A DNA stretch of 35,461 nucleotides, taken from assembly GCA_021770655.1 (NCBI GenBank), contig JAETQO010000015.1:1-35461 (forward strand), in the 5' to 3' direction. This document shows positions 18,099 through 28,270 of the stretch, piece after piece. This DNA comes from Ruminococcus sp. GTDB taxonomy: Bacteria > Bacillota > Clostridia > Oscillospirales > Ruminococcaceae. The translations under genes and the position numbers were made by a program. How positions within the stretch are numbered: the stretch's first letter is position 1; each line of letters starts with the position of its first letter. A model generated the notes under the pieces. The model saw only the letters and a program-made list of their open reading frames with translations. It made no database searches and was not told where the DNA came from.

Positions 18099-18167
18099 AA
18101 TATTTTTTATGCGAAGTAGCAATGAACAAGGAAGTAAAAGCAAACATCAAAATGTTCTAAGCAAATA

Positions 18168-18190
18168 AATTCCTCATTCCTCACTCCTCA
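18168..18190 (+). repeat. family B repeat abutting the glgP stop codon
   Basis: AATTCCTCATTCCTCACTCC and three further bases end exactly where the glgP stop TAA (18191-18193) begins. On the minus strand the repeat therefore starts directly after the stop. The DUF368 gene end shows the same placement. Confidence 0.65.
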
Positions 18191-20602
18191 TTACTTAGTG
18201 AGTCCCCAGATGTCCTTTGCGTATTCTTCTACGGAACGGTCTGCGGAGAAAATGCCAGCGCCTGCAATGTTTGCAAGGCTCATCTTCTGCCACTTGAGCT
18301 TATCTCTGTAGCACTCTGAAGCGTACTTCTGAGCCGCCTGATAGGAGTCGAAGTCCTTGAGAGCCATGTATGGGTCTGAGTTTTTCAGACTGTTGGCGAT
18401 CTCGTTGAACTGCTGTCCGTTGATGCCGTACTGAAGAGTGTCTATTGCCTGCTTTACTGTCGCGTTGGAGTTGTAAATGTCAATAGGCTTGTAGCTTGCC
18501 TTGCAGGCGTTTACTTCGTCAACGTTCATACCGAAGATAATGATGTTGTCGTCGCCGACCTGCTCGTGAATCTCGACATTTGCACCGTCCATTGTGCCGA
18601 GGGTAACTGCGCCGTTTATCATAAGCTTCATGTTACCTGTTCCCGATGCCTCTGTTCCGGCAAGAGAAATCTGCTCGGAAATATCTGCGGCAGGCATAAG
18701 AAGCTCGGACAGCGAAACGTTATAGTCCTCAAGGAAAATTACGCTGAGCTTATCTTTAAGCTTATTGTCCTTTTTAAGCTCTTCGGAAATGTTCCAGATA
18801 AGCTTGATTATCTGCTTTGCCATATAATATCCCGGAGCCGCCTTTGCCGCAAAAATATAGGTTTTCGGCGTGAAATCGGCGTTAGGGTTCGCTTTCAGAT
18901 AATTGTACTGTGCAATGATATTCAAAGCGTTAAGCTGCTGTCTTTTGTATTCGTGAAGTCTTTTTACCTGAACGTCAAAAATGGAATCGGTGTTCAATGT
19001 TACGCCGTACTGGTTCTTTACATACTTTGCAAAGTTCTTCTTGTTTGCAAGCTTTATAGACGCAAGCTTTTCGAGAACTTCCGCATCGTCCTTGAATACG
19101 GAAAGCTTTGAAAGCTCTGCGGCGTTTTTCAGGAATCCGTCGCCGATCTTCTCGCGGAGAAGCTTGGTAAGTCCTTCGTTGGACTGATAGAGCCATCTTC
19201 TGTAAGCGATACCGTTTGTAACGTTCTTGAACTTTGTTGGGGTATCAAGATACTCGTCCTTGAAAGTCTCTTTCTTGATGATCTCGGAATGTATTTTTGC
19301 AACGCCGTTTACGCTGTGGCAGGTATGGACGCAGAGGGTAGCCATTTTGACTTTGTTGTTTTCAACGATGGACATATGGGAAACCTTGGCTTCGTCTTTG
19401 TAACGCTCCCAAAGATCTTTGCAGTAACGCTCGTTGATCTCGATGATGATGGAGAAAATTCTCGGACATACGCTCTTGAGCAGGTTGCAGTCCCATTTCT
19501 CCAGAGCCTCGGGCATTACGGTGTGGTTTGTATATGCAAAAGTATTTGTTACGATATGCCATGCCTTATCCCATGAATAGCCGCAGTCGTCGAGAAGGAT
19601 TCTCATAAGCTCAGGGATAGCGAGGGTCGGGTGAGTATCGTTGATGTGGATAGCAACCTTTTCATGGAGGTTGTCAAGAGTGCCGTAAACGCTCATATGC
19701 TGATTTACGATGTCGCCGACAGACGCAGCGCAGAGGAAATACTGCTGTCTGAGTCTGAGGGATTTACCCTCGGCGTGGTTATCGTTAGGATAGAGCACCT
19801 TTGTGATAGCCTGTGAGATGATGTTTCTGCCGAGAGCCTTCTGATAGTCGCCCTTATTGAACATCGACATATCGAAAGACGCTGTTTCAGCTTTCCAGAG
19901 TCTGAGCTTGGAAACTGCTTCGCTGTCATAGCCGGAAACGAACAGGTCGTAAGGAACAGCCATAACGGAAGTGTAATTTTCATGTGTAACGCAATGATAC
20001 TGGTTATCCCAATACTCCTTCAGCTCGCCGTCGAAGCGGACCTCGACTGCTTTTGAAGGAACGGGAACGAGCCATACGGAACCGCCCGGAAGCCAGTTAT
20101 CCGGAAGCTCGGTCTGCCAGCCGTCTTCAAGTTTCTGCTTGAAGATACCGTACTCGTAGCAGATAGAATATCCTGTTGCATGGTAGCCGTCGGCGGCAAG
20201 AGCGTCGAGGTAGCAGGCGGCAAGACGTCCCAGACCGCCGTTTCCGAGACCTGCATCAGGCTCGCACTCATAGATACCGTTTATTGAAATACCGAAATCT
20301 TTCAGTACAGAGGTTGCCTGACTTACCATTTCCAGATTATAGAGAGAGGTCTTAAGACTTCTGCCCATAAGAAATTCCATGGAGAGATAATATATTTTCT
20401 TTTTTCCCTCCGACTGGGTTTTAACGGTGAATTTTCTTCTCTTTGCTTTCAGAATGCCGACCACGATCTTTGACAGAGCCTCATAGACCTGCTGATCCGA
20501 AGCCTCTTCGGGAGTCGTCTGAAAGTCGTTGTGAAGAACGTCGAGAAATTTCTCTTTTAGTTCCGCCTTGGAAATTGTTTTTTCTACAGCGTTTTTTGAC
20601 AT
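18191..20602 (-). CDS. glgP: glycogen/starch/maltodextrin phosphorylase
   Basis: This 803-residue GT35 enzyme degrades alpha-1,4-glucans with phosphate to glucose-1-phosphate, using pyridoxal phosphate. The N-terminal region has YYLSMEFLMGRSL and GLGNGGLGRLAACYLD. The PLP-binding K659 sits in EASGTGNMKLM. HINDTHPTLAIPELMR and VKRLHEYKRQQLN are also typical. The length fits bacterial GlgP/MalP. AGGAGG precedes the ATG by 8 nt. Two promoters lie upstream, the distal one carrying a LacI-type operator like those at the sugar ABC operon. It is probably part of an alpha-glucan utilisation regulon. Glycogen versus imported maltodextrin as main substrate cannot be told. Confidence 0.97.
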   Translation of the reverse strand: MSKNAVEKTISKAELKEKFLDVLHNDFQTTPEEASDQQVYEALSKIVVGILKAKRRKFTVKTQSEGKKKIYYLSMEFLMGRSLKTSLYNLEMVSQATSVLKDFGISINGIYECEPDAGLGNGGLGRLAACYLDALAADGYHATGYSICYEYGIFKQKLEDGWQTELPDNWLPGGSVWLVPVPSKAVEVRFDGELKEYWDNQYHCVTHENYTSVMAVPYDLFVSGYDSEAVSKLRLWKAETASFDMSMFNKGDYQKALGRNIISQAITKVLYPNDNHAEGKSLRLRQQYFLCAASVGDIVNQHMSVYGTLDNLHEKVAIHINDTHPTLAIPELMRILLDDCGYSWDKAWHIVTNTFAYTNHTVMPEALEKWDCNLLKSVCPRIFSIIIEINERYCKDLWERYKDEAKVSHMSIVENNKVKMATLCVHTCHSVNGVAKIHSEIIKKETFKDEYLDTPTKFKNVTNGIAYRRWLYQSNEGLTKLLREKIGDGFLKNAAELSKLSVFKDDAEVLEKLASIKLANKKNFAKYVKNQYGVTLNTDSIFDVQVKRLHEYKRQQLNALNIIAQYNYLKANPNADFTPKTYIFAAKAAPGYYMAKQIIKLIWNISEELKKDNKLKDKLSVIFLEDYNVSLSELLMPAADISEQISLAGTEASGTGNMKLMINGAVTLGTMDGANVEIHEQVGDDNIIIFGMNVDEVNACKASYKPIDIYNSNATVKQAIDTLQYGINGQQFNEIANSLKNSDPYMALKDFDSYQAAQKYASECYRDKLKWQKMSLANIAGAGIFSADRSVEEYAKDIWGLTK

Positions 20603-20690
20603 ATACTTTACCTCCTACATACTTTTAAGCTGAGTGCAGACGCACTTCGCACCTTTATTTACGCTATCGGCGCAAATCAATCCAAATAAA

Positions 20691-20719
20691 ATTATATCAT
20701 ATTCCGACTTATTTTGCAA
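20691..20719 (-). promoter_or_regulatory. glgP proximal promoter
   Basis: Minus strand: TTGCAA (20714-20719), 17-nt spacer, TATAAT (20691-20696). It lies 88 nt upstream of the glgP ATG. Confidence 0.75.
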
Positions 20720-20781
20720 GGATAAAAAGCGGAATTAGAAATAATTTTAAATATTTGACAAGAAGATAGTTTATAGAAACG

Positions 20782-20833
20782 AAAACGTTTTAATATCAAA
20801 CTATATTATATGGTATTGTTGCATAATTGTCAA
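20782..20833 (-). promoter_or_regulatory. glgP distal consensus promoter with LacI-type operator
   Basis: Minus strand: a perfect TTGACA (20828-20833), 17-nt spacer, TATAAT (20805-20810). The palindrome AAAACGTTTT (20782-20791) follows, about 13 nt past the -10 box, where a bound repressor would block initiation. The flank read on the minus strand, ATTAAAACGTTTTCG, closely matches ATTAAACGTTTTCG at 33188-33201. Wider inverted arms (ATAGTTT/AAACTAT) surround the operator. Confidence 0.78.
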
Positions 20834-21008
20834 GGCGTTTAATTGTACAAAATGCTGATTTTGGAACATTTAACAGCAAAGAGGGGGCGGAAAGCGGGGA
20901 TTTTTTATATTATCACAAGAATAAATCTGCGATTTATGAACGGAGGATATTACACTTTCGGGTGCGGCGGTTTTGTTGTTTAAGGCGTGGTTAGTTTCGG
21001 TCGCTTTA

Positions 21009-21110
21009 TGCACAGTATGCACAATAATTTGTGCGCTTTTTTGTGCAGCTATATGATAAATGATTTAATTTGACAACATTTCAGTAATTGTTGCATTTTT
21101 TATGCAACAA
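21009..21110 (+). promoter_or_regulatory. operator-rich region upstream of the phage cassette
   Basis: Two TGCACA sites (21009-21014, 21018-21023) are followed by two inverted counterparts (TGTGC at 21030-21034, TTGTGCA at 21041-21047). Further on, TTGTTGCAT (21088-21096) is perfectly inverted at 21102-21110 with a 5-nt loop. TTGACA at 21070-21075 has no good -10 box at 16-18 nt. The rest of the gap 20834-21204 shows no gene. A phage-type repressor or activator is suggested but not identified. Confidence 0.5.
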
Positions 21111-21204
21111 AATGGGGATTTTTCGGGATAAGTGAGAGGCGGCTGTGCGGACTGAGGTCGGCAGGCGGCTGAGAAAAAATTAATGAATACCGGGAGGTAA
21201 CGTT

Positions 21205-21660
21205 ATGGTCGGTACTAAGAAGCTGTTTGCGAGGTTTTTCTTTCATCTGAGGAACGCGCGTGAGGCGGCGGTAAGGGTGGGAAGTCCGCCGGACTGCGCA
21301 GAGGCTGAGGGTGCGGCGCTTTTACACGACAAATGGGTCGGCGAGGAGATCAAAAAGCTGGAGGAGAGCGACTCTCAGGGGACGGCTTACGCTAAGTCGG
21401 GTTTGACGAGGCTTGCTTTCGGGGCGGTGAACGACGCGGTAAGGCTGGCATTTGACGAAGAGATAACGTCGGAGGAGATAATGAAGCTGGATCTTTACAA
21501 CGTGAGCGAGATAAAGCGGCCAAAGGGCGGCGGGCTGGAGATAAAATTCTTCGACAGGCAGAGGGCTTTGGAAAAGCTGGTGGAGCTTGATCCGCAGTTC
21601 GGCGAGGAGTCGGAGGCGCAGAGGCTTGTGGACGCTATTTACGGACGGGGAGGCAGATAA
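21205..21660 (+). CDS. phage terminase small subunit (probable)
   Basis: This 151-residue protein lies immediately before the large terminase subunit, where the small DNA-recognition subunit is normally encoded. Its middle part (GLTRLAFGAVNDAVRLAFDEEITSEEI) and the following EIKRPKGGGLEIKFFDRQRALEKL resemble clostridial terminase small subunits, which end with a region that binds the large subunit. A textbook helix-turn-helix is not obvious at the N-terminus, which is unusually basic and aromatic (KKLFARFFFH). GGGAGG 7 nt upstream supports the ATG. The role is to select DNA for packaging. The call rests on position and on the C-terminal resemblance. Confidence 0.75.
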   Translation: MVGTKKLFARFFFHLRNAREAAVRVGSPPDCAEAEGAALLHDKWVGEEIKKLEESDSQGTAYAKSGLTRLAFGAVNDAVRLAFDEEITSEEIMKLDLYNVSEIKRPKGGGLEIKFFDRQRALEKLVELDPQFGEESEAQRLVDAIYGRGGR

Positions 21661-21662
21661 AA

Positions 21663-22907
21663 TTGAATACTTACAAAACGTCTGCCAATCAGCAGTTCGT
21701 TTTTCGATGGTGGGCCGAGCCTGCGCTTGGGGATTACGATGGGATAATCTGCGACGGGGCGGTCAGATCCGGAAAAACCTTTTGTTTATCGGCGTCGTTT
21801 GTGACATGGGCAATGACCAATTTTGACGGCCAGCTTTTCGGACTGTGCGGCAAGAGCATAATTTCGCTCAAGAGAAATATTCTGCCGTCGCTGAGAAAAT
21901 TTATGTCGGCTTTGAAAATGAAGGTTTCGGAGGTTTCGTCGAGAAACTACATGGACGTGACCTTTGGCAGGCACACGAACAGGTTCTGCTATTTCGGCGG
22001 CCGTGACGAGGGGTCGCAGAGTTTCATTCAGGGCGTGACCCTTGCGGGAGTGCTGATGGACGAGGCGGCTCTGATGCCGAGGAGTTTTCTGGAGCAGGCT
22101 GTGGCAAGGTGTTCCGTGGCGGGTTCGAAGCTTTGGTTCTGCTGTAATCCGGACAATCCGTTTCACTGGTTCAAGAAAGAATGGATAGACAGGGCGGAGG
22201 AAAAGCGGCTTTTATACAGGCACTTTTCTTTGGAGGACAATCCGTCGCTGAGCAGGGAGGTCATCGAGAGATACCACAGGCTTTACACGGGAACGTTTTA
22301 CGAACGGTTCGTGCTTGGAAAATGGACGGCGGCGGAGGGGCTTGTTTATTCTATGTTCGATTACGGCAGGGACACCTTCGAGGGCGGCATTGACTGCGAG
22401 AGGTATGTTATAAGCTGTGATTACGGAACGGTAAATCCGTCAAGCTTCGGGCTTTGGGGTTTGAGAGACGGAGTATGGTACAGGCTTGAGGAATATTATT
22501 ACGACTCGCGGAAAGAGGGCTTGCAGAGGACGGACGAGGAGCATTATGCGGCTCTGGAGGCGCTTGCGGGAGGACGGGTCATAGACAGGGTGGTATGCGA
22601 TCCGTCGGCGGCCTCGTTTATCGAGTGCATAAGGAGGCACGGCAGGTTTGCGGTAACTGCGGCGAAAAACGACGTCATTTTCGGTATACGGCTGGTATCG
22701 GACGGGATAAAGGGCGGTAGGATAAAGATAAGCCGACGGTGTACGGACACGCTGAGGGAATTAAGCTTATACCGCTGGGACGAAAAGGCGGGAAAGGACG
22801 CACCGATAAAGGAGAACGATCACGCTATGGACGATATGCGGTACTTTGCCGCGGAATGTCTGGGCGGAGGCGGCGAGGAATTCTTTGTTGCCGCCGTGGA
22901 GCATTAG
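21663..22907 (+). CDS. phage terminase large subunit (PBSX-type)
   Basis: This 414-residue DNA-packaging motor combines an ATPase and a nuclease. Walker A is GAVRSGKT near residues 32-39 and Walker B is VLMDEAAL near 125-132. The coupling-type segment FCCNPDNPFHWFK follows. The nuclease domain shows the acidic residues expected of an RNase H fold: ISCDYGTVNPSS, VVCDPSAASFIE and DHAMDDMRY. All key residues appear present. The start is a TTG at 21663, two bases after the previous stop, with GGGGAGG 9 nt upstream, so it is translationally coupled. Arg codons are dominated by AGG, unlike the neighbouring host genes. Confidence 0.93.
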   Translation: MNTYKTSANQQFVFRWWAEPALGDYDGIICDGAVRSGKTFCLSASFVTWAMTNFDGQLFGLCGKSIISLKRNILPSLRKFMSALKMKVSEVSSRNYMDVTFGRHTNRFCYFGGRDEGSQSFIQGVTLAGVLMDEAALMPRSFLEQAVARCSVAGSKLWFCCNPDNPFHWFKKEWIDRAEEKRLLYRHFSLEDNPSLSREVIERYHRLYTGTFYERFVLGKWTAAEGLVYSMFDYGRDTFEGGIDCERYVISCDYGTVNPSSFGLWGLRDGVWYRLEEYYYDSRKEGLQRTDEEHYAALEALAGGRVIDRVVCDPSAASFIECIRRHGRFAVTAAKNDVIFGIRLVSDGIKGGRIKISRRCTDTLRELSLYRWDEKAGKDAPIKENDHAMDDMRYFAAECLGGGGEEFFVAAVEH

Positions 22908-22930
22908 TATTTTTATGAAAGGAGAAGAAC

Positions 22931-24082
22931 ATGGGTTTATTCAGAAAAAAGACTGCGGTTTCGGAAACGGGGGCGGTAAGTAAGCTGAGAGACGGGGGAT
23001 TTCAGTTCAGGCTTGCGCCCGACGGGGAGATCTTTCAGCAGGAGCTTTATGATTCGTTGAGGGCGAGAGTTCCGATAATCGACGCTTGCTTTGGTAAGAT
23101 AATCAGACTTACGGGAGGTTTTAAGGTTATTGCAGGTAACGAGAGGGCGCAGAGAGAACTGGAGGATTTTTGCAGAGATGTGTCTGTGGGAGTTTCGGGA
23201 AAGTCGCTTTTTACCTTTGCGGATATGTATCTCGATTCACTGCTTACATACGGAAAGGCTGTCGGCAGGATATATGCGGATCAAAGGACGGGAAGGATAA
23301 AGGGGCTTTATGTGGGGGACGCTTCGCTTTACAGAATAAGAGAGGGAAAGAACGGTCTTGACAAGCGAGTGTTTTATGTAAGCGGCGGCAGGGAGGTAAG
23401 GATAACCTCGCCGGAAAAATTGCTTTACACGGCGCTTAATCCCAGTCCGAAACACCCGGACGGAGTTTCTATTCTCAGGGGATTGCCTGCGCTGAGCGAC
23501 ATTCTTATGAGGATATACGAATGTATCGGACAGAATTTTGACAGGGTCGGAAACGTAAGGTACGCTGTGACCTACCGTCCCGAGGGGGAGAACGACAGGG
23601 CGAGAGCCAAGGAGCGTGCGGAGCAGATCGCTCAGGAATGGAGCAAGGGCATGAGAGCGGCGAGAAACGGCGTGGTGCAGGATTTTGTTGCGGTGGGCGA
23701 TGTGGACATCAAGGTGATCGGTGCGGACAATCAGCTTATTGAAACGGAGATTCCTGTAAGACAGCTGCTTGAACAGCTTGTGGCTAAGCTTTCCATACCA
23801 CCGTTTCTGCTGGGGCTTAACTGGTCCACTACCGAGAGAATGTCGGCGCAGCAGGCGGATATGCTGACAAGCGAGCTGGAATATTACCGCAGACTTCTGA
23901 CCCCTGTGCTGGAGGAGATATGCGGGGTGTTTTTAAGGCTGAACGGTTACTCCTGCGGTGCGGCGGTGGAATGGGACAACATCAATCTTCAGGACGAGGA
24001 GGCGTTGGCTAAGTCAAGACTTTACAACGCTCAGGCTGAGGAGATCGAGGACAGGTTGAAAAATCAGAGTGAGTTGAAGTAA
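22931..24082 (+). CDS. phage portal protein
   Basis: This 383-residue protein should form the dodecameric ring through which DNA enters and leaves the capsid and which docks terminase. Features of the HK97/SPP1-like portal family are the early ARVPIIDACFGKIIR segment, a central wing region, and KLSIPPFLLGLNWSTTERM followed by the long helix ADMLTSELEYYRRLLTPVLE. The length is slightly short but within the family range. AAAGGAG precedes the ATG. It follows terL directly, the normal order in tailed phages. Confidence 0.9.
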   Translation: MGLFRKKTAVSETGAVSKLRDGGFQFRLAPDGEIFQQELYDSLRARVPIIDACFGKIIRLTGGFKVIAGNERAQRELEDFCRDVSVGVSGKSLFTFADMYLDSLLTYGKAVGRIYADQRTGRIKGLYVGDASLYRIREGKNGLDKRVFYVSGGREVRITSPEKLLYTALNPSPKHPDGVSILRGLPALSDILMRIYECIGQNFDRVGNVRYAVTYRPEGENDRARAKERAEQIAQEWSKGMRAARNGVVQDFVAVGDVDIKVIGADNQLIETEIPVRQLLEQLVAKLSIPPFLLGLNWSTTERMSAQQADMLTSELEYYRRLLTPVLEEICGVFLRLNGYSCGAAVEWDNINLQDEEALAKSRLYNAQAEEIEDRLKNQSELK

Positions 24083-24096
24083 GAAGGAGGATTTTT

Positions 24097-24936
24097 ATGA
24101 GTGAAAAGGTTTCGGGCGAAGAGCTGGAGCTGATAAACGGTTATGCAAGAGAGCCGCTGGAAAGCGAACAGGTTTTTGTTTTTTCTGTTATCCTATGCGA
24201 CAATGAGATCGACAGGGACGGGGAGAAGTTCAGCTCCCGGACGCTTGAGGGACTGGCGGAGCTTTTTAAGGGGCGGACAGGCATTTTTGACCATGATCCC
24301 AAGAGCGAAAAGCAGTCGGCAAGGATATACGACGCATGGGTGGAGACTGTTCCCGAAAAGCTGACGGCGGACGGGGAGGTCTACCGCAGGCTCAGGGCGA
24401 AGGCTTACATGGTAAGGACCGGATCAAACGAGGACCTTATCAAGGAGATACAGGGAGGTATCAAGAAGGAGGTTTCTGTAAGCTGCAGCGTAAAGAGAAA
24501 GCTTTGCTCTGTTTGCGGAGCTGACCGGTATGAGGTCGAATGCGGTCACGAAAAGGGCAGGGAATACGGCGGAAAGCTTTGTTTCCATATTCTTGACGAG
24601 CCGACGGACGCTTACGAATGGTCCTTTGTGGCGGTGCCGGCGCAGGTGAACGCAGGAGTTACCAAGAGGTTTTCCTCCGCCGAAAGCAAGTCCGCTTTTT
24701 TGGACAGCTATGAAGATGTTGCGCTGGCGAGGGAACAGCTCAGGGGCGACGTTTTAAGGCTAAGCTATTTCTGCAAGCCGTACATGACGGCAAAGGCGGT
24801 AGGGGATATGGCGGACATGATGAGTCTGAGAGAGCTTATCGATTTCAAGAAAAAGCTGGAGAAGCAGGCTTGCGACAACGAGGAGGTCTATATCGCCGAG
24901 GAGCAGAGTTTTCTGACGGGAGATTACAAGGTATGA
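24097..24936 (+). CDS. S78-type prohead protease / scaffold-like protein with zinc-finger insertion
   Basis: This 279-residue protein matches the HK97-type prohead protease pattern. It has a candidate catalytic His at H66 (FDHDPKS), Ser in KEVSVSCSV (127-129) and an acidic residue near DAYEWSFVAVPAQ (171-183). Between them is a Cys/His cluster (C137, C140, C149, H151, C162, H164) that looks like a small zinc site; similar versions exist in clostridial phages. The C-terminal 90 residues are helical and charged and may act as an internal scaffold. The role is capsid maturation. The ribosome site is AAGGAGG. The following start-stop element at 24966 lies between it and the capsid gene. Confidence 0.82.
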   Translation: MSEKVSGEELELINGYAREPLESEQVFVFSVILCDNEIDRDGEKFSSRTLEGLAELFKGRTGIFDHDPKSEKQSARIYDAWVETVPEKLTADGEVYRRLRAKAYMVRTGSNEDLIKEIQGGIKKEVSVSCSVKRKLCSVCGADRYEVECGHEKGREYGGKLCFHILDEPTDAYEWSFVAVPAQVNAGVTKRFSSAESKSAFLDSYEDVALAREQLRGDVLRLSYFCKPYMTAKAVGDMADMMSLRELIDFKKKLEKQACDNEEVYIAEEQSFLTGDYKV

Positions 24937-24958
24937 CCGATCGGGTCTGAAAGGGGGT

Positions 24959-24971
24959 GGAGGTAATGTAG
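24959..24971 (+). promoter_or_regulatory. strong ribosome site followed by a start-stop codon pair
   Basis: GGAGG (24959-24963) is followed two bases later by ATG (24966-24968) and immediately by TAG (24969-24971). Nothing is coded. The next 140 nt before the capsid ATG hold no convincing gene, only an in-frame extension of the capsid frame beginning with TTG at 24989. It could be a ribosome-stalling control element or a relic of a lost small gene. Confidence 0.5.
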
Positions 24972-25111
24972 GAGAAAAGGGACAGGCCTTGGTGCAAAAG
25001 CTAATAAATGCGTTTTTCACGGCTGAAAGTTCGGAGGCTGTCTTGCAGGAAATATTCACACGGACGTTTTTTAGGCAAACTGAATTTTATTTTGAAAAGG
25101 AGAATTTATTT

Positions 25112-26089
25112 ATGTACAACACAATCAAACTTGAAAAGGGACTTTATTCAATTACGGGAAAAACTTTTACTCAGGCGCTTGCGGAGCTTGATCCGGACGT
25201 TAATTACGAAAACACGGAGCTTAAAGGGCTTGACGCTTTTGAAAGACAGCTCAAGCGTTTTGACATAAAGGTCAAGGGCGCAAATTCCGACAGGGTGGAA
25301 AAGTTTTTCCTTTCCACGGAATCGGCTGTGCTGTTTCCCGAATATGTGAGAAGAACCATTAAACAGGGCATGGACGAAAACTCTATTATGGGCAAGGTAG
25401 CGGCGGCGGTCACTTATACTGACGGCATTGATTTCAGAGGTCTGACTGTCACCAAGAGCGGTTCTTCCGACGTTGTGAAGGAGGCCGCAACTATGCCTGT
25501 GACAAGCGTAAGGCTTTCATCGGCAAACAAGACGCTCACCAAATTTGCAAGACGTCTTAGCTGTTCCTATGAATCTATCAGAAAGCAGAGACTTGAAGCT
25601 TTCGGTGTGATACTTAAAAATCTCGGAGCGGCTATAAGCAGGGACGTCAACGGACTTGCTATGAGCGAGATAACTACGGGTCTTACTCCTATGAGCATTG
25701 CAGGCAGTAACATTGCTTACTCCGATCTTGCGGCGTTCTGGGCTTCAATGAGCGATCACAACATGACCACTATGGTATGCTCTCCTGCGGTAATGGCGAA
25801 GATACTTGCGCTGTCTGAGATGAAATACTGCGTGGGCGACTATATGGCGGGCGGTACAGTACAGACTCCTTACGGGGTGACGCTTGTGAAGTGTCCTCAG
25901 CTCACCGGCGACATTGCTGTGGGCATAGATCAGAGCTGTGCTGTTGAAATGGTGCTTGGCACGGACATTGTGGTAGATTTCGATCAGCTTATTTCTACTC
26001 AGTGCAATGAGATATCCTGCTCGATCATGGTAGGCTTTTCCGTACTTACCAACGGAGCGGTAAAGACTTTGAAGACATCGGCGACTTAA
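25112..26089 (+). CDS. phage major capsid protein
   Basis: This 325-residue protein is the probable HK97-fold shell protein, judged by its place after protease and portal, its length and its family-like segments (an N-arm, VLFPEYVRRTIKQGMDENS, the E-loop-like region and the C-terminal TDIVVDFDQLISTQCNEISC). The ATG at 25112 follows AAAGGAG by 9 nt and is preferred to an upstream TTG at 24989 in the same frame. Its Arg codons (AGA, CGT) and smoother composition look more host-like than those of the neighbours, as expected for a highly expressed protein. No truncation or frameshift is present. Confidence 0.85.
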   Translation: MYNTIKLEKGLYSITGKTFTQALAELDPDVNYENTELKGLDAFERQLKRFDIKVKGANSDRVEKFFLSTESAVLFPEYVRRTIKQGMDENSIMGKVAAAVTYTDGIDFRGLTVTKSGSSDVVKEAATMPVTSVRLSSANKTLTKFARRLSCSYESIRKQRLEAFGVILKNLGAAISRDVNGLAMSEITTGLTPMSIAGSNIAYSDLAAFWASMSDHNMTTMVCSPAVMAKILALSEMKYCVGDYMAGGTVQTPYGVTLVKCPQLTGDIAVGIDQSCAVEMVLGTDIVVDFDQLISTQCNEISCSIMVGFSVLTNGAVKTLKTSAT

Positions 26090-26148
26090 TTTTTTTCCGG
26101 GGTATTTTACGGGACAGGGGCGGGTTTTATATTTAAGGAGGGGATAAT

Positions 26149-26529
26149 TTGGCGGTTCTGAATTATGAGAATATCAAGGCCGAATTTCTGAGACTTGCCG
26201 GAATTACGGCGGTCGGAGACAGTGAACAGCTTGTAAAGGCGGCGGTAAACGGATTTGAGGAAGAGCTTGACGCCGAGAGGACTGAGACTGCGGACGACAA
26301 GGCAATATGCGAATTTGCGGCTGCCGCCGAGGCGTTCTACAGATTTGTTTGTCTGAAAGCGGCGGGAGACAAGGTAATATGCACGGCGGACGGCAGGGCT
26401 GTGGAGAAATATGACGAGGACGGACGTATAAAAGCGGCAAAGGCTTTGCGTGATGCGGCTATGGCACGGGCGGAGAGGTTTACTGCGGAAAAGGGTTTTG
26501 AGTTTCGTACAAGCGAAGGATCGGTATAA
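26149..26529 (+). CDS. phage head-tail connector-like protein
   Basis: This 126-residue, mostly helical, acidic protein follows the capsid gene. The position, size and helical pattern (YENIKAEFLRLAGI..., then long helices ending in AAKALRDAAMARAERF) fit the gp6/gp15-type adaptor that sits under the portal. No decisive motif is visible, so the call rests mainly on gene order. It starts with TTG at 26149, preceded by AAGGAGGG. Small composition bias (Ala, Glu) should be kept in mind when searching. Confidence 0.6.
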   Translation: MAVLNYENIKAEFLRLAGITAVGDSEQLVKAAVNGFEEELDAERTETADDKAICEFAAAAEAFYRFVCLKAAGDKVICTADGRAVEKYDEDGRIKAAKALRDAAMARAERFTAEKGFEFRTSEGSV

Positions 26530-26544
26530 GAGAGGAGAGGTTTT

Positions 26545-26970
26545 ATGACGGATATTTCGCAGGTAAAGCAGATAGTGAGCGGCAGACTTACGGCGGCGGG
26601 ATTTCTGCCGCTGGGGGAATATTCGGCGGCGGACAGTCTTTTACACAAGGACGAGGATATCGGATTTTTCGGTATCAGGGAATACAGGACTGAGGACGAG
26701 GCGATGAGTCACGACGGAAGCAAGCTTTTTACGGAGATAAGCTGTTTGGTGGAGATAAGGCTTATGGGAAAGGCGGGCGGTTTTTCCGATTACGATGAGT
26801 TTATCGGGCTTTGCGACGGATTCTTTTTTGCTTTGGCAAAGGAGGACGGTATGATCGTGAACAGCGCAAAGCTTGGAGGAACGGTACAGTCTTTGCCGCT
26901 GAGGAGACTGGAGAGGACTATAGAGCTGAGGGTAAGGATATGTCTTGAGGAGGAATGCGGGAATGAATAA
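26545..26970 (+). CDS. phage neck / tail-completion-like protein
   Basis: The 141-residue product is of mixed alpha/beta character with strands such as KLFTEISCLVEIRL and RTIELRVRICLEEE. That pattern is common in tail-terminator or neck proteins of tailed phages. I do not recognise a specific family. It follows the connector-like gene by 15 bp with GGAGAGG upstream of the ATG. Its stop overlaps the next start by 8 bp (ATGAATAA), showing an intact, translationally coupled junction. Confidence 0.55.
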   Translation: MTDISQVKQIVSGRLTAAGFLPLGEYSAADSLLHKDEDIGFFGIREYRTEDEAMSHDGSKLFTEISCLVEIRLMGKAGGFSDYDEFIGLCDGFFFALAKEDGMIVNSAKLGGTVQSLPLRRLERTIELRVRICLEEECGNE

Positions 26971-27310
26971 TCCTGAAAAGATAAAGCTAAGGCTGGCGGA
27001 ACATACTTTTTACATGGACGGCTACGAACGAAGCGGCGGATATTTACAGGCGGAGACCAAGGCTGTCGGAGGGATATACAGGACGGTTTCGGGGAAGAAA
27101 GCGTCTAAGCTTGTATTCAGAGGAAAGATAAGTCCGTCGGACAAGCGTTACGCCTGGGGGATTCTGAATGCGTCGGCGGGGCAGATACTGAACTTTACGG
27201 CCGGGGACACGGCTTTCAGCGGATATGTGCTGACTGATCTTGCTATGGAATTTACGCCCGGGAAGATACTGGGGGACATTAAGATAGAGCTGAGGGAGGC
27301 GGCGCTGTGA
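26963..27310 (+). CDS. gpU-like tail protein (tentative)
   Basis: The 115-residue product has beta-rich segments ASKLVFRGKISPSDK, ILNFTAGDTAFSGYV and GDIKIELREAA, with the last segment as a beta strand. The layout recalls the P2 gpU tail-completion family, and the gene is followed by a gpD-like gene as in P2. This is a shape and order argument, not a motif match. The ATG at 26963 is preferred to a TTG at 26945 because GAGGAGG lies 9 nt upstream of the ATG. It overlaps the next gene by four bases. Confidence 0.45.
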   Translation: MNNPEKIKLRLAEHTFYMDGYERSGGYLQAETKAVGGIYRTVSGKKASKLVFRGKISPSDKRYAWGILNASAGQILNFTAGDTAFSGYVLTDLAMEFTPGKILGDIKIELREAAL

Positions 27311-28224
27311 GCGGAGAGGCTTTTATACGGCTGGAGAAAAGCGGCGGTGGGTATGCGGACTGCGGCAGGATAATTTCGGCGGTTTTCTCAAAGGACCTTT
27401 ACTCGCCCTACAGCCAGCTCAGGGGGAGCGTGATGCTTGAAAGCCGGATCGGTTTTTCAGACATCAGGAGAGTTGCGTTTTACGTTGGGGGAAAGCGTGT
27501 GCATTACGGACTGCCTGATCTTTTACGCACGAGGGTGTGCGGAGGCAGGGTGATAATGAACGTTGTAAGCAGGGGGATAACGCTGCTGCTGGGCCAGAAC
27601 GAGCCTGAACCGGGAATATGGTCGCAGGTGAGCCTGACGGAGATAATGGATAGATACAGTCCGCTTTCGGAGATAGGGTTTGAGAGCGGAACAAAGACTG
27701 TGAACTATGTGAATATCAATGAGCGGTCTACGCTATGGGAGGCGCTGGGGGTATACGGCGTTAAGGCTTACGGGCACAGAGCGTACATAGGCGGGGACAG
27801 TCTGGTAAGGGTAACTTTTGAGGACGCTGTGGCGGCGCTTGGCGGAAAAGTAATAATCGACTACGGGAATCAGCTTGACACAAGTCTTATGCTTTCAAAG
27901 CTATATATGAAGAATGTTAACGGAGAGTACGGGTACAGCTATGAGGACGACAGGGTACAGCCTTTCGGTATTGTAAGAGAGAAATATTATAATCTTGACA
28001 GGCAATGGCTCAATGATGTGACTGCCGGGCTGAAGGACAGAGTGGATTTTGCGGACAGGGAATATCTTACCAATTATCTTACCTATGTCGGTTACGGCGG
28101 CGAGGACGTGGGCGACATTATTTCGGCGGTCGGGTACGGCTGTAACGGAGGAAGGATATGCAGGCTTGAGATAACGGCGGACAATGCCGGGGTAAGGACC
28201 AAGGTTTCAGCTGAGGCGGTATGA
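27307..28224 (+). CDS. phage tail hub / late-control gpD-like protein
   Basis: The 305-residue product shows features of the gpD/XkdQ-type hub family: an early VMLESRIGFSDIRRVAFYVGG stretch, a middle SLTEIMDRYSPLSEIGF, and YVNINERSTLWEALGVYGV, matching the SxWdxlxxyakk-like region of late-control proteins. It would sit at the tip of a phage tail, yet no other tail gene is in the cassette. It starts at GTG 27307, overlapping the previous stop (GTGA), with GGGAGG nearby. A terminator follows immediately. Confidence 0.6.
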   Translation: MSGEAFIRLEKSGGGYADCGRIISAVFSKDLYSPYSQLRGSVMLESRIGFSDIRRVAFYVGGKRVHYGLPDLLRTRVCGGRVIMNVVSRGITLLLGQNEPEPGIWSQVSLTEIMDRYSPLSEIGFESGTKTVNYVNINERSTLWEALGVYGVKAYGHRAYIGGDSLVRVTFEDAVAALGGKVIIDYGNQLDTSLMLSKLYMKNVNGEYGYSYEDDRVQPFGIVREKYYNLDRQWLNDVTAGLKDRVDFADREYLTNYLTYVGYGGEDVGDIISAVGYGCNGGRICRLEITADNAGVRTKVSAEAV

Positions 28225-28228
28225 TCGG

Positions 28229-28270
28229 CAAAATAAAAGCACGCAGACAAAAATCTGCGTGCTTATGATT
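28229..28270. terminator. bidirectional terminator between phage cassette and sugar operon
   Basis: A perfect 11-bp stem AAGCACGCAGA (28237-28247) with 28254-28264 is flanked by AAAATAAAA on the left and ATGATTTTTATT on the right. It can end transcription of the phage cassette (plus) and of the ABC operon (minus). Confidence 0.85.

Follow-up and report, generated by a model that had tools for sequence, protein, structure and literature searches.

Gene transfer agents (GTAs) are known in detail mostly from the Alphaproteobacteria. RcGTA and the alphaproteobacterial GTAs are inherited vertically and kept under purifying selection, and DNA carried by the Rhodobacter agent is taken up via the competence proteins of the recipient. 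Capsid-forming phage-inducible islands (cfPICIs) carry head and packaging genes without a tail, together with an integrase and regulators, and move between strains. In Ruminococcus itself, older work by Klieve in 2005 is said to have dealt with DNA transfer by vesicles. Here we describe a nine-gene, phage-derived cassette in a 35,461-nucleotide stretch of DNA, hereafter the window (positions 1 to 35,461 of contig JAETQO010000015.1, assembly GCA_021770655.1), from a gut member of the genus Ruminococcus. The sequences of the cassette and its relatives lead us to read it, with a probability of roughly two in three, as derived from a phage with a contractile tail, domesticated and passed on vertically, and now serving as a GTA-like DNA-packaging system.

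The closest described system is FpGTA of Faecalibacterium (Borodovich et al. 2026, Nat Commun; PMC12946183); this was the only relevant paper found, and no printed description of the Ruminococcus cassette was found in the literature. In the parts of that paper drawn on here, GTAs including RcGTA are described as phage-derived head and packaging genes without autonomous replication. FpGTA itself is encoded in a 10.5-kb operon of ten genes, including terS, terL, portal, scaffold and capsid genes, and its 40-nm particles, which have no visible tails, hold about 9 kb of DNA and consist largely of proteins of that operon. Some strains have a second operon (FpGTA II) with baseplate, fibre, receptor-binding, holin and endolysin genes. 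The same parts report 4.6-kb GTA-like packaging in Ruminococcus callidus, naming no genes for it; the operons were sought there in four named metagenome-assembled genomes (none of Ruminococcus), and 16 reference genomes and every scaffold of the study were examined for homologues of FpGTA.

As far as those parts of the paper describe it (PMC12946183), FpGTA resembles the Ruminococcus cassette in several respects. Its host belongs to the same bacterial family, as given there, and it is likewise a small operon of terS, terL, portal, scaffold and capsid genes plus some tail components. The gene order of the cassette agrees with the published gene listing, and the capsid and portal accessions, which are two apart, would fit a portal-x-capsid order. 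The fibre, holin and endolysin operon of some Faecalibacterium strains is similar to a second locus present in eight Ruminococcus genomes. The two systems differ in size, with 10.5 kb and ten genes in FpGTA operon I versus 7.0 kb and nine genes in the cassette, and FpGTA II also has a baseplate gene, unlike the second Ruminococcus locus. A particle holding 4.6 kb would not accommodate the whole 7.0-kb cassette. With RcGTA the cassette shares phage-derived head and packaging genes, the lack of its own replication, vertical inheritance and purifying selection, whereas the RcGTA cluster is longer and has a siphovirus-like tail and the Ruminococcus cassette is compact. Like cfPICIs it has head and packaging genes without a tail; unlike them it has no recombinase among the genes of the window and no tyrosine integrase on its contig, and genera are kept together on its trees. 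By anatomy and evolution, our best reading is that the cassette is GTA-like in the manner of FpGTA, and that these bacteria probably use it to package and pass on their own DNA.

Gene content of the cassette

The window belongs to a draft genome of 2.66 Mb in 92 contigs (G000; G, L and C numbers are our handles for genomes, loci and contigs), assigned to the genus Ruminococcus in the broad sense. The cassette occupies 7.0 kb (21205-28224, + strand) and consists of nine unbroken open reading frames (ORFs) flanked by host genes, in the order terS, terL, portal, protease-like gene, capsid, two connectors, tube-fold ring protein and baseplate hub (Table 1). Intergenic gaps measure 2-59 bp, the one exception being the 175 bp ahead of the capsid start at 25112; c7 and c8 overlap (26963/26970), as do c8 and c9 (27307/27310), and a purine-rich, ribosome-binding-like stretch lies 5' of every one of the nine genes. 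The longest capsid ORF begins at 24989, and the ATG at 25112 is the likelier start according to the gene caller and the ribosome-binding site. All nine ORFs have structural or packaging assignments or connector homology, and none is an integration or replication gene. The first-pass annotation, made from the letters of the window, had described nine intact, tightly packed head and packaging genes among host genes, as is indeed the case. The identities that it proposed stand for both terminase subunits, the portal, the capsid, the connectors and the hub; for the prohead protease there is only a match below the cut-off.

Table 1. Cassette genes and the adjacent hairpin in the window, with the evidence for each assignment.
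Feature	Assignment	Coordinates	Strand	Evidence
c1	terS, terminase small subunit	21205..21660	+	PF03592 (Terminase_2) 1.2e-9; phrog_2606 4.1e-8
c2	terL, terminase large subunit, TTG start	21663..22907	+	phrog_2 2.8e-47; PF03237 (Terminase_6N) 3.7e-14
c3	portal protein	22931..24082	+	phrog_30703 7.5e-150
c4	prohead protease-like	24097..24936	+	phrog_16951 1.7e-95 (unknown function); XkdF-like Peptidase_S78_2 0.039, below cut-off
c5	major capsid protein	25112..26089	+	phrog_3922 7.6e-69; PF25209 6.5e-14
c6	head-tail connector	26149..26529	+	hhalign 99.8%, E 4.8e-29, vs post-capsid gene of sheath-bearing clusters
c7	connector, tail-terminator position	26545..26970	+	hhalign 96.7%, E 4.5e-10, vs gene directly 5' of sheath gene in sheath-bearing clusters
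c8	tube-fold ring protein ahead of hub	26963..27310	+	model pLDDT 92.6; hhalign 76.7%, E 2.1e-5, vs pre-hub gene of sheath-bearing clusters
c9	baseplate hub, Mu gp44 / gpD type	27307..28224	+	model pLDDT 95.4; 3d37 6.6e-17, 1wru 8.5e-16
hairpin	terminator-like; could end cassette and facing transporter operon	28237..28264	both	consensus match only; 6 found in region vs 6.9 expected

The last four genes (c6-c9) gave no Pfam or PHROG matches, and their assignments come from profile comparisons, restricted for c7 to its unfused members, and from structure models of c8 and c9 built from the sequences of the window and its relatives. The top Protein Data Bank matches of the c8 model are contractile-baseplate chains (8fqc 5.7e-6, 9g8s 7.8e-6, 8v3w 1.1e-5), presumably those that start the tube, and its match to a GTA neck (6toa) is a weak one of fold (4.3e-4). 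The homologue of c9 in a sheath-bearing cluster (L202) matches the baseplate hub family phrog_177 (2.4e-8). In terL, the Walker A motif GxxRSGK[TS] is kept in 217 of 220 homologues, and a DE pair and four acidic residues show a conservation of 1.00 in an alignment of 167 sequences; from the motifs, we take the former to be Walker B and the latter the nuclease site. Because these ATPase and nuclease motifs are conserved, packaging by the cassette is probably live.

Vertical inheritance and purifying selection

The portal gene was found in 26 of the 29 genomes of the genus, with one match each, a fragment in one case (G016), and in all 20 good genomes (completeness of 90% or more, contamination of 5% or less) it is present in one copy. 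Among 24 loci of the genus, 14 have retained at least one of the two flanks, glgP on the upstream side or the transporter operon on the downstream side, and 8 of the 24 have retained the two together; at the other ten, neither neighbour lies within the fetched stretch, some of these loci being cut by contig ends. In the search that the first-pass annotation had proposed, most relatives yielded an intact homologous block, be it at this locus or at a different one, more than chance would give. In R. bicirculans (L028 / L162), DUF368, FemAB-like and hydrogenase genes that lie elsewhere in the window stand between glgP and the block, a local rearrangement.

The trees of the nine cassette genes, each with 20-22 genomes, agree with that of the host gene coaBC at 0.83-0.97 of quartets (33% at random), and Mantel correlations with coaBC distances range from 0.73 to 0.90, reaching 0.90 for terL and portal. 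The glgP tree was also considered as a host yardstick and set aside as too small and noisy (9 genomes, quartet agreement 0.36 with coaBC). Family-wide trees, in which genera with at least two rows were counted, point in the same direction. The portal tree (107 rows) needs 27 label changes for 28 genera, the minimum, with both FastTree and IQ-TREE; the capsid tree (102 rows) also needs 27 for 28 genera and the hub tree (95 rows) 23 for 24 genera, again the minimum, and the terL tree (101 rows) needs 27 for 27 genera, one above its minimum of 26. These trees omit genes shorter than 300 aa, loci without a called portal and the genus loci of G011, G027 and G028.

Selection was estimated from nine close pairs, of which 7-9 were usable per gene. 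Median dN/dS values for c1 to c9 are 0.16, 0.10, 0.09, 0.12, 0.09, 0.12, 0.17, 0.15 and 0.09, with single values of up to 0.35 and a yardstick of 0.085 for 37 neighbouring host gene pairs; the two genes singled out for this check in the first-pass annotation, terL and capsid, are at 0.10 and 0.09. Judged from its sequences, the cassette is inherited vertically with the host lineage and is under purifying selection. The host-like trees and the low dN/dS therefore fit a domesticated element rather than a mobile or decaying one, and the suggestion that this is a domesticated system is borne out by its single copy in the good genomes and by the neighbour shared at 14 of the 24 loci.

Distribution in the family and beyond

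Across the family, 127 of 297 genomes, belonging to 63 of 126 genera, have the portal, always as a single match except in G035, where two pieces lie on two contigs. A 16S probe for Faecalibacterium matched 0 of these 297 genomes, an outcome that carries no information. Of 197 genomes sampled from the order, 21 match, including 17 in five other families with one match each. The genome contig collection holds 206 candidate places encoding a relative, and the best 80 of these are labelled Ruminococcus, Oscillospiraceae, Clostridia or Clostridiales, save one Alistipes and one Clostridium. The closest named relative of the block among the matches listed is R. bicirculans 80/3 (portal 77%; glgP 95%), and the compact block is also present in R. 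flavefaciens YAD2003, ATCC 19208, Y1 and FD-1. The order of the capsid and protease-like genes is swapped relative to the window in L052, L074, L077 and the R. flavefaciens group.

Six records of the phage collection match, and no true phage carrying a close copy of the cassette was found among the four that were inspected. Three records named 'Bacteriophage sp.' from human faeces (L314, L315 and L317; MT835508, MT835769 and MT835952) look like pieces of bacterial chromosome: L314 has a ribosomal protein operon, and the neighbours in L315 and L317 are host-type by eye. Chromosomal DNA of this kind in faecal virus preparations would fit either GTA packaging or contamination. Within the L314 chromosome piece the cluster (18100-24158) stops after the terminator-position gene and has no hub. 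The match in Microcystis phage MACPNOA1 has 28% identity only, and the 54 IMG/VR contigs are all short, at most 16.8 kb.

Parts of the cassette are also found in five genomes of 0.7-0.9 Mb (G095, G186, G304, G114 and G200), each of which keeps terL and portal, not side by side and intact save for a stop in the G200 portal. In G304 the two genes lie about 2 kb apart in opposite directions. In G095/G186 (L206, L208, L254, L255) and G114/G200 (L207, L209, L256, L257) the portal stands alone with terL elsewhere, and in G095 terL is accompanied by terS, connector, tube, hub and baseplate genes.

Fuller clusters and reduction of the tail

In other genera of the family (e.g., L202 and L205), the same genes frame a contractile tail. 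These sheath-bearing clusters have homologous terS, terL, portal, c4, capsid, c6, terminator-position, pre-hub and hub genes in the same order as the cassette; each genome has a single portal, and the cluster ends that were seen adjoin host genes. Their additional genes comprise a sheath, a tube, chaperone-like genes, a spike-like gene, a sheath initiator, Baseplate_J and gpI, and the Ruminococcus cassette differs from them in having no sheath, tube, baseplate wedge or spike genes. The inspected gene tables of sheath-bearing clusters show no gene large enough for a tape measure, with none between tube and hub in L202, L205, L143 and L151, and no integrase was seen by eye in the fuller clusters of the few gene tables inspected. 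A complete prophage in other strains, the outcome that would have spoken against domestication, was not found; in other genera, too, the fuller clusters occur once per genome and are surrounded by host genes.

With the rows that could be classed, the compact form makes up one side of a single branch on the portal, terL, capsid and hub trees, with a support of 100 for portal, capsid and hub and of 79 for terL. On the other side of this branch, the sheath, or both sheath and tube, is missing in g37, g83, g119, g4, g14 and one of the four genomes of g52, and the sheath label changes 5 to 7 times on the portal, terL and capsid trees and twice on the hub tree. The trees are unrooted, and we argue for loss rather than gain of the tail from the homology of c7-c9 to tail parts.

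The 221 distinct portal places add a further observation. All nine genes are separate at 79 of them, and c7 and c8 are fused at 15 (18 loci, three of them fetched twice), with c7 as the first half of the single gene and c8 as the second; many of the remaining places are cut by contig ends or are of other classes. The c7 protein corresponds to the head-side end of the tail and c8 to its baseplate-side end. Such a fusion can be understood only if no other part separates the two, and we therefore infer that the tail has been reduced to a single ring and the hub.

A second locus with fibre and lysis genes

One subclade of the genus (L165-L167, L169-L172, L176) has a further cassette gene, c10, which lies 3' of the hub, measures about 105 aa and has no convincing family match. 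Its profile matches in 21 of the 29 genus genomes, in the cassette itself, in ordinary prophages (e.g., L331 and L332), alone (L341 and L342), or as a domain of fibre-like proteins. The last of these settings, with proteins of 369-413 aa, occurs in eight genomes, and a ninth (G028) has the domain in a gene that was not called.

In eight genus genomes (L328-L330, L333-L335, L337 and L339), a second locus near spoVT and secG-rnr encodes the fibre, mostly with a holin and a GH25 lysozyme. At the six loci that reach that far, the fibre gene is followed by a gene of 151-176 aa, then by the holin and the GH25 lysozyme; the holin is of the PF05105 type in three, of another family in two and not called in one, and secG lies beyond the lysozyme in five of the six. 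Across the genus, holin PF05105 is patchy (11 of 29 genomes, partly in prophages). The locus adjoins an intact spoVT in six of the eight genomes. In G017 (L335:8140-10308) a serine recombinase frame continues into the C-terminal domain of SpoVT, in G028 (L336:2163-4376) the same kind of frame lies beside the domain match, and in G020 (L328:404-1486) the contig start falls inside a similar frame. We read the recombinase as a separate mobile element inserted into spoVT, which looks like an insertion site.

The fibre tree of seven genomes agrees with the portal tree at 35 of 35 quartets and with coaBC at 31 of 35. At this locus, five pairs of fibre genes gave dN/dS values of 0.10-0.27 and three pairs of lysozyme genes gave 0.06-0.13, with dS saturated in some. 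We infer that the second locus serves the cassette because the two share the c10 domain, have a matching history and recall the FpGTA II operon.

Flanking genes and regulatory signals

The cassette lies between the glycogen phosphorylase gene (glgP) on one side and a sugar-transporter operon that faces it on the other. In a Pfam scan of the 18 remaining called genes of the window, 17 had matches and are host-type, and the one without a match is, by position, the solute-binding protein of the transporter; no recombinase or phage gene was found among the 18, as the first-pass annotation had held for the surroundings of the cassette. Tyrosine integrases gave seven matches in the genome and none on the cassette contig (C11), serine integrases not having been searched genome-wide. 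The first-pass annotation had also raised the possibility of a tail module elsewhere in the genome: Baseplate_J (PF04865) has no match in the window's genome and matches in only one of the 29 genus genomes (G028, twice), with a model that is able to pick up Baseplate_J in a fuller cluster (5.6e-41). A promoter scan returned 10 matches versus 7.3 expected and left the cassette without a clear promoter.

Discussion

If the cassette is a GTA-like packaging system, the terminase would load host DNA into the capsid in short headfuls. The portal would be closed by the connectors c6 and c7, then by c8 as a single tube-fold ring and c9 as the hub, giving a tail of nearly zero length. Particles would be released by cell lysis, with fibre and lysis genes supplied, in eight genomes of the genus other than that of the window, by the second locus; in GTAs, genes for release and adsorption are often spread over more than one locus. 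Uptake by recipients may then depend on their own competence proteins, as in the Rhodobacter agent; a ComEC-type domain (PF03772) is present in all 29 genus genomes. Random packaging of host DNA and its transfer, the two functional hallmarks of a GTA, are predictions for the cassette, the R. callidus packaging being an indirect hint of the first.

Particles of this kind, filled with DNA or empty, might also form without delivering DNA, either as a PBSX-like killing particle or for the export or destruction of DNA at lysis. The hub fold of c9 also occurs in contractile injection machines, the PF05105 and c10 probes brought up no fibre or receptor-binding gene in the window's genome, and the parts of PMC12946183 drawn on here leave delivery open even for Faecalibacterium. 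A killing particle, however, needs a sheath, a tube and a baseplate wedge, exactly the parts that the compact clade is without, and the packaging genes are retained under purifying selection, so that we consider this explanation unlikely, although it is the most serious of those weighed. Vertical inheritance and selection alone do not tell the role of a product, and the capsid set could have been co-opted for a cellular job other than DNA transfer, such as a compartment or a stress storage body. A DNA-free compartment needs neither the ATPase and nuclease motifs of terL nor a chain of portal, connectors and hub, all of which are conserved, making such a role distinctly improbable.

That integrase, replication, tail and lysis genes are missing and that presence in the family is patchy would be natural for a decaying prophage remnant. 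The single copy in every good genome of the genus, the dN/dS medians of 0.09-0.17, the host-like gene trees and the recurrence of nine separate genes at 79 of the 221 portal places, with the c7-c8 fusion at 15, leave very little room for decay. A complete or recently decayed prophage was rejected since no integrase, replication, tail or lysis module, whole or broken, lies nearby, and so was an assembly artefact hiding a tail, as the same compact block ends in host genes on many independent contigs. A cfPICI that borrows tails would account for head and packaging genes of its own in the absence of a tail. No recombinase occurs among the genes of the window and no tyrosine integrase on the contig; furthermore, the genera hold together on the trees, a chromosomal neighbour is shared in 14 of 24 relatives, and the cassette has its own hub, which makes this the least probable of the explanations. 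Of the two analogies offered in the first-pass annotation, the satellite one thus fails on the lack of an integrase in the window and on vertical inheritance, and the one with GTAs fits.

Several observations weigh against reading the cassette as a domesticated GTA-like system. The portal is without a match in half of the family's genera, where it was lost or never present, and nine of 128 family portal matches contain an in-frame stop. Within the genus, the Mantel correlation with coaBC distances is lower for c1, c5 and c6 (r 0.73-0.75) than for terL and portal (0.90). Fibre, holin and lysin genes were not detected in the window's genome by the probes used: PF05105 has no match in G000, and G000 and G001 both lack a match to the c10 profile. 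The lysozyme tree of the second locus, with five genomes, agrees with coaBC at none of five quartets and with portal at three of five, and a serine recombinase adjoins the locus in G017 and G028. Matches to a LexA/SOS-type box, 12 versus 14.4 expected, are not above chance. In the comparison with Faecalibacterium, the likeness is one of gene content and description; the tailless appearance of FpGTA was seen on particles and the cassette is known from genes alone; and in the parts of PMC12946183 drawn on here the proteins of all scaffolds were clustered and no FpGTA homologues are reported in Ruminococcus.

The domesticated GTA-like reading can be extended, with somewhat less than even confidence, into an account of the whole family. 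The GTA lineage may be older than the genera of the family, and one clade would have shed the whole contractile tail, leaving a neck capped by a single tube-fold ring and a hub, with the terminator-position and ring proteins fused in some members. The system would be divided between two loci, the second being, in the genomes that have it, the small fibre-holin-lysozyme operon beside spoVT and secG-rnr, with parts kept as scattered genes in genomes of 0.7-0.9 Mb, and it might supply the genes behind GTA-like packaging in Ruminococcus. If this is true, the cassette would provide candidate genes for the 4.6-kb DNA packaging of R. callidus and would show what degree of tail reduction is compatible with continued selection on the head machinery of a phage. 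Capsid-borne gene exchange would then be a normal trait in about half of the sampled genera of a major gut family.

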